From NCBI GenBank assembly GCA_030425045.1, contig JAUHVL010000022.1, positions 1-53,807 of the forward strand: a stretch of 53,807 nt of DNA. The letters run 5' to 3'. The position numbers and the translations under genes were made by a program. Below the pieces are notes generated by a model that was not told where the DNA came from, did not search any database, and was given only the letters and a program-made list of their open reading frames with translations. Below, piece by piece: positions 25,518-32,680 of the stretch; the first letter of the stretch is position 1, and each line of letters opens with the position of its first letter. Origin of the DNA: a bacterium (GTDB taxonomy: Bacteria > Bdellovibrionota > Bacteriovoracia > Bacteriovoracales > Bacteriovoracaceae).

Positions 25518-26474
25518 ATGAAACTCTTAGCGTTACTTTTTATTTTTGCCCTACTCTATAGCTGTAATAATCTGAATAATAGAAAGATTTCTTCATTAGA
25601 AAATACGAAGACACTTCAGAAAATAGACAGCACAAATTGGATTGCATTTTGTGAAGACGGAACCAGAGAGGATGTCACTCAGGAAATGATACTAAGTAAT
25701 GAAGTATGTGTTGGAGACTCTTTTGATAATAAAGGAATTTGTCTTGAAGAAGCTAAGAAAGGTTTAAATAGTGGTTGGTATGACAGCCCTAGTGAATTAA
25801 GTCAGCTTAGTAATGCTTGTGAGGGAGCAAAAGCAGATGTTGGTGGTTGTCTAGATTCAGCAAAGTCTGGCATGAGTAGCGGCTGGTATGATAGCCGTGA
25901 CGAAATGATTCAGTTAATAAATGCTTGTAAAAATGCTGAGCATGGAGCGCATAAATGTCTTGAATCTGCCAAGTCAGGAATGAGTAGTGGTTGGTATGAT
26001 AGTCGAGATGAAATGATTCAATTGATTGATTCTTGTAATAAATCATCTGTTGGAACAAGTGAATGTCTAGAGTCTGCAAAGTCTGGGATGAGTAGCGGCT
26101 GGTATGATAGTCGCGATGAGATGATTGTTCTGATAAACGCATGTCGTGAGGTTAATATTGGGGCCAATGGTTGTCTTGAGTCGGCAAAGTCCGGCATGAG
26201 TAGTGGCTGGTATGATAGTCGTGACGAGATGATTGTTTTAATTGATGCATGTAAAGAGTCAAAGTCTGGGGCTGAGGGATGTCTAAAATCGGCTAAGAGC
26301 GGATTGAGCAGTGGTTGGTATGATAGCCGTGATGAAATGGTCGAAATTATAAATGTTTGTAAAAAAGCTACAACCTCAGTTGTCAGTTGTATTGAATCTT
26401 CAAAAAAGAGCATGAGTAGTGCTTATTATGATAGCCGTGCCGAGATGATTAACTTAATAAATTCATGCTTATAG
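25518..26474 (+). CDS. Lipoprotein built of seven 36-residue repeats
   Basis: A 318-residue predicted lipoprotein: lipobox LLYSC gives Cys16 and AAAGGA precedes the ATG. After a unique region of about 58 residues, seven copies of a 36-residue unit run to the C-terminus. A consensus core is SAKSGMSSGWYDSRDEMI, with Cys at unit positions 1 and 27. The first and last copies are the most diverged, which suggests growth by internal duplication. No known repeat family (TPR, Sel1) fits exactly, though each unit could be a helical hairpin held by a disulfide. It would sit at the cell envelope; its role is unknown. Confidence 0.8.
   Translation: MKLLALLFIFALLYSCNNLNNRKISSLENTKTLQKIDSTNWIAFCEDGTREDVTQEMILSNEVCVGDSFDNKGICLEEAKKGLNSGWYDSPSELSQLSNACEGAKADVGGCLDSAKSGMSSGWYDSRDEMIQLINACKNAEHGAHKCLESAKSGMSSGWYDSRDEMIQLIDSCNKSSVGTSECLESAKSGMSSGWYDSRDEMIVLINACREVNIGANGCLESAKSGMSSGWYDSRDEMIVLIDACKESKSGAEGCLKSAKSGLSSGWYDSRDEMVEIINVCKKATTSVVSCIESSKKSMSSAYYDSRAEMINLINSCL
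25740..26471 (+). repeat. 108-bp coding tandem repeats (6.8 units)
   Basis: Units begin at 25740, 25848, 25956, 26064, 26172, 26280 and 26388 with no insertions or deletions; the last lacks 8 codons. The middle copies share the segment coding SGMSSGWYDSRDEMI with only silent third-base changes, showing selection on the protein. Confidence 0.9.
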
Positions 26475-26703: not shown

Positions 26704-28692
26704 TTATCTCTTCAAAGCTGGAACAATATATAAGTCAAACAATAGACCGAAAAGTATAGTTATACTCATCAGTACGCCAAATTGTTTTATTGGTAAGAAA
26801 TCGTTGAAACCTATGATAAGAAAAGAGAAAATGAGTAATAATGATACATAGAAAATGGGACCAATTGTGGCCACTTTATAATTTTCTATTTCCTCATTCT
26901 TCCTAATTGAAAATAAAATATGAATGGTGCTATCAACAATGATTCCAAATGACACGCTAAAGGTCATAATTGTAGCAACATTGAGACTGAATCCAGCTAT
27001 ATTCATAAAAAGAAGAGATAATGATGGTGGCCCAATATTTACTAAAATAAAAATAAAGAAATCTGATAGTGACTTAAAGCTAAAAGCAATAATTAAACAC
27101 ACGATTAAAAGACTTATTAAAAAACTTTTTACCAGCGTTTGAATCAAGTTTTTTTGTGAAGTCATAAGGTGATAATAAATTCCATTAAACTCATACTTGA
27201 TATTATTCTTTTTTAGATAATTATCTACAGCGCCGACAAACTGGAAATATTCTTCTGTATTTAATAATTTTCCATAGATGGTTATTCGATAATCGTTTTC
27301 ATCAGTGTTTCCATAGCTTAGTAGAATCTCTGGAATTTTCGACTTTAAGGTATAGTAGGCGACAGAAGCTCTCGGGAGGACTTGTTGACCTAAGTATAAG
27401 TAATTTATATCTTTGATGATGGTGTTTAATGATGCGATACTGTTAATGCTTTTATGAACAAGCTTCAAATCTTGCTCTATCTTGTCAATCTCTAATACTT
27501 TTTTAAAATTGTCTTGATCAGCTTTTATTATAATTTCTAGGTTGGGATTACCTAAAAAGTGATGATGAAGCTTATCTATACTCGTTCGAACAATATGTTT
27601 TTGAGGGAAAAAGTATGATGCTTCTACTAAAACAGGAACTTTGATAAATGACCATAGTCCAAAAAGAATACTAATTGTCGTAATCAACAATGCTAAAGTT
27701 TTTCGGGGAAGAATCAAGAGAAATTTTGTACCTTTTAAATTAAGGTTTTTTTTGGGGGAGATATTATCAAAAAACATAATCCAAAAAACGATGGTGAAAG
27801 ATGAAGAGACAAAAATAGAAAACGAAGAGATTAAGGCAAATTGTTTGATGGCCAGAATATCGCTTAAGTAAAGGCTTCCAAAACCAATGACAGTAGTAAG
27901 AATCATTAGCAAAAATGGATGTAATTTCCATTTTAAAATTTCTTTCTTACTTTTATAGACCAATGAAGAAAAGTAAAAATGAAAACTGACTGCTAGTGTA
28001 ATAACAAAAGAGACTAGTGGTGAAATGACAGTGACCATATTAGAATGAGTATAAAAAACTTTTGTAACAATTAGAGTTAAACCGACAGAAAAAAGAGATA
28101 TAAAAAAGATATAAAAAGAGGGAATGAGTGATCTTATTAAAATAACGATAAAGATAAATGAAAATATAAATAATAATGGGAAAACGATAGTTTTAATTTC
28201 TAGTGATTGTTTATCTAGGTAGAAGTTTGTAAAACTTGGACCTATAAGTTTTACATTTTTTAAGTGTTCTAATATATCAGAAAAAAGCCTGTTTAGCTCT
28301 GTTGGAAACATTTTGGGGTGAGTAAAGATAAAAAAATGTCCTTTTTTATCGATTAGTTTTAGCGATAAAAGATTATTTTTTTTATAAAACTCTCGAATAT
28401 CATCATTATATTGTTTTTTGGTAAAGTTCTTCGCCCAGGCAAGTTTAACTTGAGGGTATTTTTGCTTAATCTTTTTAAAGGCTTCTTCAATAATGATAGG
28501 ATTATCTGTTTCTAAATACCCTAAGACAAATCTTTTGTCCTCATGCTTTTTCAAAAAGGACTTATATAACTTTAATGAGTTCTCGGTTAGGAAAACCTCT
28601 TCCTTATTATATTGGATAAGGTCATTACTAAAGCTCAGAAGGATTACCGTTATAAATGCGAGTAATCCTAAAGGGTAGTGCTTTTTGGTCAT
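26704..28692 (-). CDS. MMPL/RND-superfamily lipid exporter
   Basis: A 662-residue inner-membrane protein of the MMPL (HAE3) branch, half the size of AcrB. One helix at 10-26, a periplasmic domain to about 165, then a five-helix bundle; this plan repeats with a second periplasmic domain at about 355-510 and a last bundle. FGIIVDSTIHILFSI carries the proton-relay-like Asp of the family. It lacks the tail of mycobacterial MmpL proteins. Its ATG overlaps the YceI stop (4 bases). Being last in a type III PKS operon, it is the likely exporter of that product (inference). Confidence 0.85.
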   Translation of the reverse strand: MTKKHYPLGLLAFITVILLSFSNDLIQYNKEEVFLTENSLKLYKSFLKKHEDKRFVLGYLETDNPIIIEEAFKKIKQKYPQVKLAWAKNFTKKQYNDDIREFYKKNNLLSLKLIDKKGHFFIFTHPKMFPTELNRLFSDILEHLKNVKLIGPSFTNFYLDKQSLEIKTIVFPLLFIFSFIFIVILIRSLIPSFYIFFISLFSVGLTLIVTKVFYTHSNMVTVISPLVSFVITLAVSFHFYFSSLVYKSKKEILKWKLHPFLLMILTTVIGFGSLYLSDILAIKQFALISSFSIFVSSSFTIVFWIMFFDNISPKKNLNLKGTKFLLILPRKTLALLITTISILFGLWSFIKVPVLVEASYFFPQKHIVRTSIDKLHHHFLGNPNLEIIIKADQDNFKKVLEIDKIEQDLKLVHKSINSIASLNTIIKDINYLYLGQQVLPRASVAYYTLKSKIPEILLSYGNTDENDYRITIYGKLLNTEEYFQFVGAVDNYLKKNNIKYEFNGIYYHLMTSQKNLIQTLVKSFLISLLIVCLIIAFSFKSLSDFFIFILVNIGPPSLSLLFMNIAGFSLNVATIMTFSVSFGIIVDSTIHILFSIRKNEEIENYKVATIGPIFYVSLLLIFSFLIIGFNDFLPIKQFGVLMSITILFGLLFDLYIVPALKR

Positions 28693-29261
28693 TTAAGCTC
28701 AACCTGAAACTTTAAATTAAAGAGGTCTCTTACTTTAGCAATAGCTATTGACGGATCTGGAATTTCCAGTTTTTGAAGAGATACTTGAGTATTTCCTGTA
28801 ACTTTAATGATATTGCCATCCTTATATACATTAGCTTGAAGTGTAATAGGAAAGTCTTTACCTCTGATGTGTAAAACCGCAGGTATTCTTTGAGATATTT
28901 TTTTTGTATCAAAGATTCTTACAGCACTATTGATTTTGATTTCGATGTATTTAAATTTATCAGCACTCAAAGTTTGCTCATACATTTTCTCGTCTCTTGA
29001 TGAGTTGTCTGTATCAATGCTTTTTGCTTCGAATTTTACTTCAATATTTCTCAAAAAATTATGATCACCTTTAGCAGAAATTTGGAACCTCTTTACAAAT
29101 CCATCAAATGAAGTTGTTAATATTCCCAGTTTGGTACTTTCACTTTCTAATTTGATATAGTTTGCCGATTTTGAACTTTCTTCATAATCCTTGAAGCTAT
29201 AAGTCGTTGTTATAGCAAAATTATTAAAGCTTAAGAGAAATAGGATGATAAACATTTTCAT
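28689..29261 (-). CDS. YceI-family periplasmic lipid-binding protein
   Basis: A 190-residue exported protein with a signal peptide at 1-17 (NNFA). The mature part is a lipocalin-like barrel of the YceI type: residues 40-70 (SFDGFVKRFQISAKG), KFEAKSIDTDN, a KFKYIEIK strand and a closing LKFQVEL. Homologues bind polyisoprenoid or long-chain quinones in the barrel. Placed between a methyltransferase and an MMPL exporter gene, it is well suited to carry the lipid product through the periplasm (inference). Start 14 bases after the methyltransferase gene. Confidence 0.75.
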   Translation of the reverse strand: MKMFIILFLLSFNNFAITTTYSFKDYEESSKSANYIKLESESTKLGILTTSFDGFVKRFQISAKGDHNFLRNIEVKFEAKSIDTDNSSRDEKMYEQTLSADKFKYIEIKINSAVRIFDTKKISQRIPAVLHIRGKDFPITLQANVYKDGNIIKVTGNTQVSLQKLEIPDPSIAIAKVRDLFNLKFQVELK

Positions 29262-29275
29262 AAAGCACCTTCTAT

Positions 29276-29827
29276 TTAATTTATTTTTTTTAATGTAAGA
29301 GTATTTTTAAGAACTTTATTCTCAAGATCAATTCTACTTTTGATTATCCATAAGTTAACAAGTGAAAATAGAATTAAAGTGAAATAACATTGAAATACCA
29401 AAGGAATAAAAATAAACTCTAAGACTACAGCAAGGTAGGCTGGATGTTTAATTATTTTAAAAATCCCCGTGTTGATCTGTACTTGATAAGGAATTTTCAT
29501 TATTTTTACAGTCCAGTATTCGCCAAGCTCTTTAATAGATAAAAAACGAAGAGTTTGAGAAATAAGTATTGTTCCGTAGCTAATAAGAAGTAAACTCGTA
29601 TTTATCAGTCGTCCAAAAACAGCCCCCTCTACTATCAAGGCTATAAACCAAAGTGAATGAAATAGTTTTAGTTTTCTATTCTCACTAGGAGAAACAATTC
29701 TTGCGTTATATTTATTCTTTAATGTATTTTCATTTCTTGCTGATAGATTGAGTTCAAATAGTCTCTGAGCAATAATAACTGCGATTAAAGAATAAAAAAC
29801 GAAAATATCACTTTGAAAAAAAAACAT
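29276..29827 (-). CDS. Isoprenylcysteine-methyltransferase-like membrane methyltransferase
   Basis: A 183-residue membrane protein with four or five helices. The ICMT signature is in the C-terminal half: GIFKIIKHPAYLAVVLEF (binds the methyl donor S-adenosylmethionine) followed by DLENKVL. In bacteria such proteins, including B. subtilis BpsB and streptomycete SrsB, O-methylate the alkylresorcinol or alkylpyrone made by a neighbouring type III PKS; that is the likely role here. One base separates it from the PKS gene, which precedes it in transcription. Confidence 0.85.
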   Translation of the reverse strand: MFFFQSDIFVFYSLIAVIIAQRLFELNLSARNENTLKNKYNARIVSPSENRKLKLFHSLWFIALIVEGAVFGRLINTSLLLISYGTILISQTLRFLSIKELGEYWTVKIMKIPYQVQINTGIFKIIKHPAYLAVVLEFIFIPLVFQCYFTLILFSLVNLWIIKSRIDLENKVLKNTLTLKKIN

Positions 29828-29828
29828 T

Positions 29829-30881
29829 TTATATTCCTTTTAATAGCGTTGATTCCGAATTGAAGGCAGGCCCCATTGCCAGTGCAATAGCATAATCACT
29901 TTTCTTGACACCTTTATTAAGAGTTCTTTTCAGGACATCAAGTACAGATACTGAGGACATATTTCCTAGATCCTTTAGACTATCCCAGCTATGATTAAAC
30001 TTATTATCACTATATCCCGTCGCTGAACTTAGGGCCTTTAAAACCTTTGGCCCTCCTGGGTGCGATATAATATGCTCAATTTGATCGGTTTTTAGAAAGT
30101 TCTTATCTAAGAAATAAGATAAATCATCGGCGATATTTTCCTTTACGATTTCAGCAACATCACCACTCAATACAATTTTAAAACCATCTTTAGTAATATC
30201 CCACCCCATAGTCCTTTCTGTATTTGGATAGAAGTTTGAAATACTATCTAAAACTTCAATTTTCGCTTTTTTAGACAAGGGATGATCATTGCCACACATT
30301 AGTAGTGCAGCAGCCCCATCTGCAAAAAGTCCTGTCGAAACGAGATTAGCAACACTTTTATCATCAAACTGAAATGTTAAAGAACAAAGTTCACTTGCTA
30401 TAAATAAGACACATTGATCTGGGTAGGCCTTGAGATAATCATGTACTCGGTTAATCCCAGCGACACCTCCAAGGCAGCCAAGGCCAAAGTAGGGCATTCT
30501 TTTTAAATTTCGTTTAAATTTAAACCGATTCATTAAAAGGGCATCTACACTTGGAATAGAAATTCCTGTAATGCTAGTAAAGGCCATAGCATCGATTATT
30601 TCAGGATTAATGTTATGCTCTTCTAGTAAAGATTGAATAGCAGTTTCTAAAAGATCTGTCGTATGCTCTTTCCAAATGAGTGAACGATTACCAAAATCTC
30701 CAAGGTTCAAATACTCTTCAAGCTCTAAGGCCAGATGCCTTTTTTCCACGCAGACATTATTATGAAATTGTCTGATACGGTTTTCCTTATCAGGCCATAC
30801 CTTTGAGATAAAATCTACGATTTCATTTTGATCAAAATAGTTTTTTGGAAATGATGTTTTTAAATCAATAATATAGCTCAT
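29829..30881 (-). CDS. Type III polyketide synthase (chalcone/stilbene synthase family)
   Basis: A 350-residue ketosynthase that extends a starter acyl-CoA with malonyl-CoA units. The triad is readable: Cys136 in FGLGCLGGVAGI, His274 in SHPGGPKVL and Asn307 in LGNMSSVSVL. Bacterial relatives with long-chain starters make alkylresorcinols or alkylpyrones (phenolic lipids), and the surrounding genes fit that class, but starter and ring type cannot be decided from the sequence. The gene is two bases downstream of the FAD oxidoreductase gene and one base upstream of the methyltransferase gene. Confidence 0.92.
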   Translation of the reverse strand: MSYIIDLKTSFPKNYFDQNEIVDFISKVWPDKENRIRQFHNNVCVEKRHLALELEEYLNLGDFGNRSLIWKEHTTDLLETAIQSLLEEHNINPEIIDAMAFTSITGISIPSVDALLMNRFKFKRNLKRMPYFGLGCLGGVAGINRVHDYLKAYPDQCVLFIASELCSLTFQFDDKSVANLVSTGLFADGAAALLMCGNDHPLSKKAKIEVLDSISNFYPNTERTMGWDITKDGFKIVLSGDVAEIVKENIADDLSYFLDKNFLKTDQIEHIISHPGGPKVLKALSSATGYSDNKFNHSWDSLKDLGNMSSVSVLDVLKRTLNKGVKKSDYAIALAMGPAFNSESTLLKGI

Positions 30882-30883
30882 AA

Positions 30884-32062
30884 TTAACCTCTCCTCGATA
30901 CAAGAAGTCTCATTGCTCCTTGTAAGGGTGAATAAATATTTCCAACTATTCCTACGAACGCATCACCTCTATCTCTTTTTCTTGCCAGAAAGTTTGCAAT
31001 AAGCTCACAAAGCCAAGGCTTTTTTATTACAAATTGGAAAAAATTATTTAGAATTGTTTTTTGAAAGAAGAAAATGTTCTTTTTTCTTTTATAGTGCATT
31101 AGTGCCTTCGTAATGTCTTTTTTATCTTGAATGGATTCATATAGAAGAACACTACTTTTTAACGCATTATAAATTCCCTCGCCTGTTAGAGGGTCAATAA
31201 AGCCAGCAGAGTCTCCGACATAGACAAGGTTATCGCCAGCAACAAATGAATTTTTAGCGTTTAGGGGAAAAACGAGATTTACTTTTTCGTTTTCAGGAGG
31301 AATATTAAATTTACTTTTTAATAGATTAGATGAATTAATTGACTCAATAATTAATTCTCTTTTATTTTTAAACTTTTGTACTTTTGTATTGTCACAGACG
31401 ATTGAAAAATTGACTTCATTTTCATCAATCGGATTGATTCCACAGTAGCTATTATTTTTAAGTATATGCATTTCTCCAAAACGGTCATAAGAATCTCTCT
31501 TTTTTGTTAAATAGCAGTGAAGTGCCACACGCTTATTTTTCACAGCTTTAAGGTGACCAAGTTTTTTAGCAACAATTGAGCTTCTGCCATCTGCTGCAAT
31601 TAAAATATCACCTGAAACCGTTTTGTTATCTAATGAGTTAATGCTCCAAAAGTCTTTTTTCCTTAAAACCTCATTTACAGTAAAATTAAATTCAATATCA
31701 ATATTTGATTTTCCCCTAACAAGCTGAAGAAGCTTTTTCTCAAAAACTTCTCTATTTAAAGAAAGACCTTTAAATTTGAAATTTGATAACTCTGGAAAAT
31801 GGGTCTCAACCTCAGTCTCTTGAGGGGAAATAATGCGCATTCCGATTAGGTCATTAAACTCTTCAAATTTGTCGAGTATTTGAAGCTGAATTAATAACTC
31901 AACTCCTCTTGGGCAGAGATATTCTCCACAAGCTTTCCTTTTGATATACTTGAGCCTATCAACCAGCGTTATCTTTTTAAAAATATCTGACAATAGGTAA
32001 GCAGAAAGAAGTCCTGCTGGTCCTGCTCCAATAATGATAATTTCTTTATTTTTATAACTCAT
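30884..32062 (-). CDS. FAD-dependent oxidoreductase/hydroxylase (geranylgeranyl-reductase type)
   Basis: A 392-residue flavoprotein. IIIIGAGPAGLLSAYLL at 8-24 is the N-terminal FAD-binding Rossmann motif, ACGEYLCPRG near 43-52 is the family signature after the second strand, DILIAADGRSS near 150-160 and VYVGDSAGFIDPLTGEGI near 280 are the other FAD contacts. In streptomycete srs clusters a flavoprotein hydroxylase (SrsC) converts the methylated alkylresorcinol to a hydroquinone or quinone; this may be the same job. It is the first gene of the operon and its product has a C-terminal helical tail that may contact membrane. Confidence 0.8.
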   Translation of the reverse strand: MSYKNKEIIIIGAGPAGLLSAYLLSDIFKKITLVDRLKYIKRKACGEYLCPRGVELLIQLQILDKFEEFNDLIGMRIISPQETEVETHFPELSNFKFKGLSLNREVFEKKLLQLVRGKSNIDIEFNFTVNEVLRKKDFWSINSLDNKTVSGDILIAADGRSSIVAKKLGHLKAVKNKRVALHCYLTKKRDSYDRFGEMHILKNNSYCGINPIDENEVNFSIVCDNTKVQKFKNKRELIIESINSSNLLKSKFNIPPENEKVNLVFPLNAKNSFVAGDNLVYVGDSAGFIDPLTGEGIYNALKSSVLLYESIQDKKDITKALMHYKRKKNIFFFQKTILNNFFQFVIKKPWLCELIANFLARKRDRGDAFVGIVGNIYSPLQGAMRLLVSRRG

Positions 32063-32134
32063 ATTTAAGTTCCAAAGAGAATCTCTAAATAATATTACGC
32101 CAACTCAGAAATTTTCTTTATCCTTCATATGTTG

Positions 32135-32140
32135 TATAAT
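32135..32140 (+). promoter_or_regulatory. Probable -10 box of the LuxR-type gene
   Basis: A perfect TATAAT lies 31 bases before the chosen ATG. No clear -35 is seen upstream, which suggests activator dependence or a weak promoter. Confidence 0.35.
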
Positions 32141-32170
32141 CATAGAAATATCAGAGACTTAAGGTTTTAT

Positions 32171-32680
32171 ATGACAAAAGTCCATAGACAAGAACGTCTT
32201 GTAATCACATTCATCCTCGTTTTGATATCAGCTTTAACCTTAGTTGATGTATTTAATGATATTCAGGAAGGCCTACCTACTAAGCACTTGATACACGAGC
32301 TTGGGCTTGTCTTTATTTGTTTGTCCGGAATTGCCTATCAGTTATTTATTATCAAAAGAAAGAATACTGACCTCGTTAGTTTTGACCAAAAAAACCGAGA
32401 ATTAAGCCATGAAAATGCCGAGTTTAAAAAGCAATTACAAAATAGGCTTTTAGGTGCTCAGAGTTTAGTGGAAGAAATGTTTGAAAGGTGGTCACTTTCA
32501 AAAGGGGAGAAGGATATTGCTATCCTTTTAATCAAAGGCTGCTCTATGAAAGAGATCGCTGAAACTCGTAGTTCAAGCGAGAGTACAGTCCGTCAACAAG
32601 CTTCTAATATTTATAAAAAAAGTAAGCTCGAAGGAAGAAAGGAGCTTACGGCTTTTTTTATTGAAGACTTATTTGCTTAA
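32171..32680 (+). CDS. Membrane-anchored LuxR-type transcriptional regulator
   Basis: A 169-residue protein. ATG 32171 is chosen because AAGG lies six bases before it and a TATAAT -10 box (32135-32140) lies in the would-be longer start. Two membrane helices at about 10-30 and 40-60 are followed by a coiled segment and a C-terminal LuxR/GerE helix-turn-helix (SLSKGEKDIAILLIKGCSMK, then STVRQQASNIYKKSKLEGR). Anchored regulators of this kind sense an envelope or lipid signal. It is divergent from the phenolic-lipid-like operon and probably controls it (inference). Confidence 0.75.
   Translation: MTKVHRQERLVITFILVLISALTLVDVFNDIQEGLPTKHLIHELGLVFICLSGIAYQLFIIKRKNTDLVSFDQKNRELSHENAEFKKQLQNRLLGAQSLVEEMFERWSLSKGEKDIAILLIKGCSMKEIAETRSSSESTVRQQASNIYKKSKLEGRKELTAFFIEDLFA

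Follow-up and report, generated by a model that had tools for sequence, protein, structure and literature searches.

Organization of the locus

We analysed a stretch of 53,807 nucleotides (contig JAUHVL010000022.1, assembly GCA_030425045.1; hereafter the window) from a member of the Bacteriovoracaceae, whose assembly amounts to 3.97 Mb. The window carries five minus-strand genes, spanning 26704-32062, and a divergent sixth gene, which together form a putative system for the synthesis, modification, carriage and export of a phenolic lipid under a membrane-anchored regulator. The features are the following:

30884..32062, minus strand: FAD-dependent monooxygenase-like flavoprotein, 392 amino acids, first gene of the operon (Pfam, NCBIfam, AlphaFold2 model, tree)
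29829..30881, minus strand: type III polyketide synthase (PKS), 350 amino acids (Pfam, Pks11 and CylI matches, catalytic triad, W227)
29276..29827, minus strand: ICMT-family integral membrane methyltransferase, 183 amino acids (Pfam ICMT)
28689..29261, minus strand: predicted YceI-family periplasmic lipid-binding protein, 190 amino acids, with a signal-peptide-like N-terminus (Pfam YceI)
26704..28692, minus strand: MMPL/RND-type exporter, 662 amino acids, a short HAE3/MmpL-like form (HAE3/HpnN models, AlphaFold2 fold)
32171..32680, plus strand: membrane-anchored LuxR-type regulator, divergent from the operon (GerE, two N-terminal helices)
32121..32136, no strand: candidate operator, the imperfect palindrome TCCTTCATATGTTGTA in the spacer between the LuxR and flavoprotein genes (weak in the window, support from comparison across relatives only)

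A preliminary description of this DNA had set out the five genes and the divergent two-helix LuxR, and the list of open reading frames (ORFs) confirmed every ORF, strand and gap. The flavoprotein, PKS, ICMT and YceI genes are separated by 2, 1 and 14 bases, and the YceI and MMPL genes then overlap by 4 bases. The same description had spoken of a Bdellovibrio-like host, but the organism groups with the Bacteriovoracaceae and not with Bdellovibrio proper. The closest PKS is that of an 'Oligoflexia' metagenome-assembled genome (MAG; 77% identity), followed by Bacteriovorax/Bacteriovoracaceae records. Two named strains of the predatory genus Bacteriovorax have the operon as well (loci L102 and L104): sp. 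DB6_IX carries the full set, and BSW11_IV has it in another layout.

Conservation and co-occurrence of the gene set

We looked for the PKS in 59 relatives and 291 genomes of the phylum and retrieved its neighbourhoods. The relatives were found by a PKS profile scan of genome contigs; a scan with the single PKS as query matched no relative. Using an unbiased clustering of all ORFs surrounding 57 PKS genes, we found that six families recur: PKS (57 loci), YceI (39), the FAD flavoprotein (36), ICMT (35, fusions counted), MMPL (34) and LuxR (27). The next most frequent family is present in 11 of the 57 loci, and the flanking genes are not conserved. Chance clustering was rejected, since the six families recur in these loci while their flanks turn over.

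The gene order is variable among relatives, while the set of families stays. The order of the window, FAD-PKS-ICMT-YceI-MMPL, is also present in L015, L017, L018 and L019, whereas MMPL is relocated behind LuxR in L016, L020 and L056. Other loci have YceI-PKS-ICMT-FAD with MMPL behind LuxR (L063, L066-L070 and L072), or PKS-MMPL-FAD-YceI without ICMT (L027, L082 and L085-L087). The preliminary description had proposed to look in relatives for a conserved T3PKS-ICMT-YceI-MMPL order with its LuxR neighbour, and the comparison strongly bears this out.

Moreover, the pump is a faithful companion of the PKS. Exporter matches separate into a strong and a weak group, with no E values between 1e-50 and 1e-28, and the strong group was used to assess co-occurrence. 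This subfamily is present in 38 genomes, 36 of which also encode the PKS, against 6.4 expected (hypergeometric p ~1e-32).

The same five functions were observed with a different layout in four MAGs outside the Bdellovibrionota (L124, L152, L168 and L171, three of which are Planctomycetota), so that the set extends beyond a single phylum. There, MMPL-FAD is divergent from YceI, a methyltransferase where visible, and PKS; the methyltransferase was directly seen in L171 only. No membrane LuxR of the window family was found in these planctomycete versions, and it was seen in Bdellovibrionota only.

Additional genes accompany some of these loci. In L022, L105 and L112, an AMP-binding ligase lies ahead of the flavoprotein in T3PKS-ICMT clusters, and L022 and L105 encode an additional small phosphopantetheine protein; the two together suggest a carrier-bound starter. 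Ten loci, mostly of the YceI-first subtype, have an extra gene with a median length of 258 amino acids (L020:7760-8449, with equivalents in L022, L063, L065-L070 and L072). The copy from L020, the one tested, shows weak ICMT/PEMT similarity, and the extra gene may possibly encode a second membrane methyltransferase.

Carrier, fusions and exporter

The methyltransferase matches Pfam ICMT (5.5e-19) and the carrier Pfam YceI (4.1e-12, 47.1 bits versus a cut-off of 23.7). The N-terminus of the YceI protein reads as a hydrophobic leader, and its solved relative by sequence is 3q34, a weak match (E 0.002). In six loci (L016, L054, L055, L056, L060 and L061), ICMT and YceI form a single ORF of 362-384 amino acids. 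Every fusion retains between the two domains a hydrophobic, signal-peptide-like stretch with basic residues ahead of it; thus, the YceI part would be periplasmic and the methyltransferase held in the membrane. The flavoprotein tree splits these loci into two separate groups, L016/L054/L055/L056 and L060/L061, pointing to two fusion events. That the carrier would serve the methylated product is most directly suggested by these fusions.

The exporter of the window has no Pfam match, while its relative in L027 does reach Pfam MMPL; the HAE3 and HpnN models match the window protein at ~1e-10. Its AlphaFold2 model (pLDDT 86.8) shows an RND fold with two transmembrane bundles and periplasmic domains, and aligns with MmpL4/MmpL5 over 614-634 of 662 residues (Z 38-39, root-mean-square deviation 3.8-4.1). 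For example, MmpL5 (MSMEG) gave Z scores of 39.4 and 39.2 over 626 and 622 residues. The model also aligns with AcrB-like RND pumps.

These observations bear on whether YceI, MMPL and LuxR merely hitch-hike beside the PKS and serve a general response to envelope or redox stress, unlinked to a phenolic lipid. YceI and MMPL are common families and their order varies among relatives, as this explanation would have it. Yet the set is conserved while the flanks turn over, the pump subfamily co-occurs almost perfectly with the PKS, ICMT-YceI fusions occur in two lineages and the set recurs in a second phylum, so that we consider hitch-hiking very improbable. Because of the fusions and the pump-PKS co-occurrence, we instead tie pump and carrier to the PKS product. 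The make-modify-carry-export logic of the preliminary description thereby gains support, whereas the cyst, envelope or respiratory role that it had suggested for the lipid is conjectural.

The type III PKS and its cyclisation residue

Both the N and C domains of Pfam T3PKS match above the cut-off (E 1e-15). The catalytic triad of the window PKS is C136, H274 and N307, and the Cys-His-Asn triad is complete in 135 of 137 PKS loci. Its nearest solved relatives are Pks11 (1.4e-73) and CylI (1.2e-61).

In ArsB, Trp281, versus Gly in ArsC, steers cyclisation towards resorcinol or pyrone (PMC9927152). The ArsC structures 3VS8 and 3VS9 differ by one residue in the aligned stretch, from G to W, and alignment through them places this position at W227 of the window PKS, equivalent to ArsB Trp281. 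W227 is invariant in alignment set A2. Within the Bdellovibrionota set, all 35 ICMT-bearing loci have W, and all 15 loci with Y or F are without ICMT. The PKS product would be an alkylresorcinol made from a long-chain acyl starter.

The second PKS group (L026-L030 and L081-L090), in which Tyr or Phe replaces the cyclisation Trp, is always without ICMT; YceI is retained in most of its loci, and MMPL, FAD and LuxR in many. L029 has a gene for a UbiE-type methyltransferase between those for PKS and YceI.

The flavoprotein belongs to a separate clade

The flavoprotein matches Pfam FAD_binding_3 (9e-12) and NCBIfam GG-red-SF (123 bits, under the cut-off of 158.8). It belongs to the GG-reductase/PHBH superfamily and carries the motifs CGEYLCPRG and DPLTGEG. 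Its AlphaFold2 model (pLDDT 89.8) has a PHBH-like fold, with flavin halogenases and hydroxylases as best matches (Z 33-38).

A tree of 63 T3PKS-associated flavoproteins resolves into two clades with 100/100 support. Clade 1 (CGEGLMP or CGQGIMP) adjoins PKS genes in Streptomyces, Mycobacterium, Myxococcota, Spirochaetota and Planctomycetota. Clade 2 (CGEYLCP or CGEFLSP, with DPLTGEG) includes the window protein and is nearly confined to loci with YceI and usually MMPL; it is present in Bdellovibrionota and in the four other MAGs described above. The window protein is 17-22% identical to the type neighbouring actinobacterial PKS genes, a comparison that left out the HidB, SrsC and PkqC sequences themselves. 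The preliminary description had paired the PKS with the usual srs/bps-type flavoprotein, but the window protein lies in a separate, fully supported clade. Some Bacteriovoracaceae (L063-L072) combine YceI, MMPL and LuxR with a clade 1 flavoprotein, indicating that the transport part outlives an exchange of the tailoring enzyme.

The membrane LuxR and its candidate operator

The regulator has two N-terminal hydrophobic helices, a short linker and a C-terminal GerE helix-turn-helix (3.2e-07). Neither a receiver nor an autoinducer-binding domain was found among its Pfam and NCBIfam matches; having the GerE domain only, the protein falls outside the quorum-sensing LuxR class. Its start was revised from the listed position 32129 to the ATG at 32171, because its closest relative, in L015, begins with MTKVH; from this alignment of starts, 32171 is likely the true one, which leaves a spacer of 108 bases to the flavoprotein gene.

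The LuxR family is not specific to the operon, as it is present in 114 of 291 genomes of the phylum, many without the PKS. Eighteen paralogues away from PKS genes have varied neighbours. In L193, L197 and L199 the neighbour is cytochrome b561; in L182, L183, L194 and L196 (L191 is similar), it is a gene for a membrane protein of ~185 amino acids without Pfam match, followed by a different YceI. The cytochrome b561 and other YceI neighbours hint at a connection of this LuxR family with redox processes or quinones. Moreover, the window's own genome holds, on contig C24 (L031:4885-5220), a LuxR 3' fragment with 90% DNA identity over ~308 bases and two in-frame TGA codons; this partial copy is degenerate and lies apart from the operon.

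The palindrome TAGGACATATGTCCTA is the consensus upstream of the PKS-linked LuxR genes in relatives. The window site is imperfect and weak, and lies 35 bases from the LuxR start. A palindromic expectation-maximisation motif beat shuffles, its input including some coding bases, and homologous coding stretches scored as high as the spacer motif; we therefore used only the tests in which one subtype predicts another. These gave p values of 1e-6 (A to B), 8e-4 (A+B to C), 2e-3 (B to A) and 5e-3 (C to A+B), pointing to the palindrome as a candidate operator. The promoter scan (30 versus 27.4 in background) and the terminator scan (6 versus 2.8) were near background and were not used.

A divergent LuxR at a fixed position, a candidate operator, a dedicated pump and a Pks11-like PKS sequence are also what would be expected if the PKS made an alkylpyrone or another lipid acting as a diffusible signal, secreted by the pump and sensed by the membrane LuxR in a self-controlled circuit. 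We regard such a circuit as improbable: the LuxR is without a known ligand-binding domain, many members of its family are unconnected with a PKS, none accompanies the planctomycete versions, and Trp at position 227 favours resorcinols. An envelope lipid of the alkylresorcinol type remains our preferred reading of the PKS product.

Just past the operon end, at 25518-26474 on the plus strand, the window encodes a putative lipoprotein with ~6 near-identical Cys-bearing repeats (CLESAKSGMSSGWYDSRDEMI...), which is not conserved together with the operon.

Comparison with known systems

The window holds contiguous T3PKS, methyltransferase and flavin oxidoreductase genes, as in the srs, pkq and hid phenolic-lipid operons. 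The srs/pkq operons of actinomycetes, which convert alkylresorcinol to alkylquinone, have the same trio, and Trp at the ArsB-281 position as in the window PKS (PMC9927152). Unlike the window, the Streptomyces and Mycobacterium loci that we found have no YceI, MMPL or membrane LuxR match within 6.5 kb, and their flavoproteins are of the other clade. Methyltransferase and oxidoreductase partners are also present in planctomycete T3PKS operons, whose PKSs, when expressed heterologously, yield C15/C17 alkylresorcinols (PMC10896814). Among these, the five-gene operon of 'Saltatorellus ferox' includes a lipoprotein gene and a YceI-like lipid/isoprenoid-binding gene; no pump or regulator is described there and MMPL is unmentioned, whereas the window has both a pump and a regulator (PMC10896814). 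The hierridin (hid) clusters of cyanobacteria have the same PKS, oxidoreductase and methyltransferase, and the relevant section of that paper describes no exporter, carrier or membrane LuxR (PMC8086630).

Two further systems resemble parts of the locus. In aryl polyene clusters, ApeL-ApeM-ApeN are an analogous RND pump and periplasmic carrier with a proposed role in lipid placement at the outer membrane (PMC8253772), but these clusters use type II fatty-acid-like synthesis and LolA/LolB-type carriers, against T3PKS and YceI in the window. The window locus was rejected as an aryl polyene cluster, with no type II ketosynthases, dehydratases or acyl carrier proteins among its six genes. The ars cyst lipids of Azotobacter are T3PKS phenolic lipids built into the envelope (PMC4824345). 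Azotobacter ArsB has the Trp equivalent to W227, the sequence comparison here having been made with ArsC only. The arsABCD genes are activated by ArpR (PMC4314083), and not by a membrane LuxR as proposed for the window operon.

Overall, the biosynthetic trio is a known and very widespread operon type (PMC10896814, PMC8086630, PMC9927152), while what seems to be new is the addition of a pump and a membrane LuxR, the fusion of the carrier and the clade of the flavoprotein. In the open-licence literature, where low-ranked matches may have stayed hidden, our search turned up no operon that joins a T3PKS to an MMPL pump, YceI and a membrane LuxR. The preliminary description had called the arrangement an undescribed system; because the trio is known and a YceI-like gene was already reported in one planctomycete operon (PMC10896814), we limit that term to the export and regulatory extension.

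Since T3PKS, methyltransferase and oxidoreductase make respiratory polyketide quinones in mycobacteria and Streptomyces (PMC9927152), the product could also be a polyketide-type respiratory quinone. It would stay in the inner membrane, with YceI as a quinone-binding accessory and a pump that exports something else or trims the quinone, and the cytochrome b561 and YceI neighbours of the LuxR paralogues give a redox hint in this direction. We consider this unlikely: the pump accompanies the PKS very faithfully, although an electron carrier has no need of an exporter; the ICMT-YceI fusions send the binding domain to the periplasm; and the flavoprotein lies outside the clade found beside actinobacterial PKS genes.

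Proposed function of the operon

Our preferred reading, which we consider probable, is that the product is an alkylresorcinol, O-methylated and probably hydroxylated, which pump and YceI place in the envelope. The gene set with its conservation, the co-occurrence, the fusions, the folds and the active-site residues are observed, whereas each chemical step, what pump and carrier transport and how the operon is regulated are inferred as follows. The PKS would add malonyl units to a long-chain fatty acyl starter and close the chain to an alkylresorcinol. The membrane ICMT-type enzyme would then O-methylate a ring hydroxyl at the inner membrane, and the flavoprotein may hydroxylate the ring to give a methoxy-hydroquinone/quinone-type or hydroxylated lipid. 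To judge by families, fusions and co-occurrence, the MMPL/RND pump would extract the lipid from the inner membrane, and YceI would bind it in the periplasm and carry it onward, probably to the outer membrane. Finally, the fixed divergent position of the two-helix LuxR suggests that it may switch the operon on a membrane cue, possibly through the spacer palindrome.

Several points weigh against this reading. YceI and MMPL are broad families whose substrates are not readable from sequence, and ~18 of the 57 loci are without YceI nearby and 23 without MMPL, some of which is explained by a contig end. The fold of the flavoprotein would also fit a reductase, or even a halogenase. The Y/F loci are largely one clade (29-36% identity to the window PKS), so that the correlation between W and ICMT represents few independent events. 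It should also be noted that Pks11, an alpha-pyrone synthase in the PDB, likewise has W and that CylI has L; W227 is therefore a hint and not a proof.

More tentatively, and with somewhat less than an even chance in our estimate, the locus may represent a dedicated trafficking line for T3PKS lipids, in which an MMPL/RND pump would hand its cargo to a soluble or methyltransferase-tethered YceI carrier and on to the outer membrane, under a membrane LuxR. The ICMT-YceI fusions reveal which carrier goes with which enzyme. The operon thus joins two questions, the role of YceI and the exit of phenolic lipids from the inner membrane, an exit that is undescribed in the literature we found. YceI proteins are widespread and their job is unclear, and the operon offers a testable function for them; if true, a dedicated trafficking line would give this large and functionally vague family a defined cargo and role.

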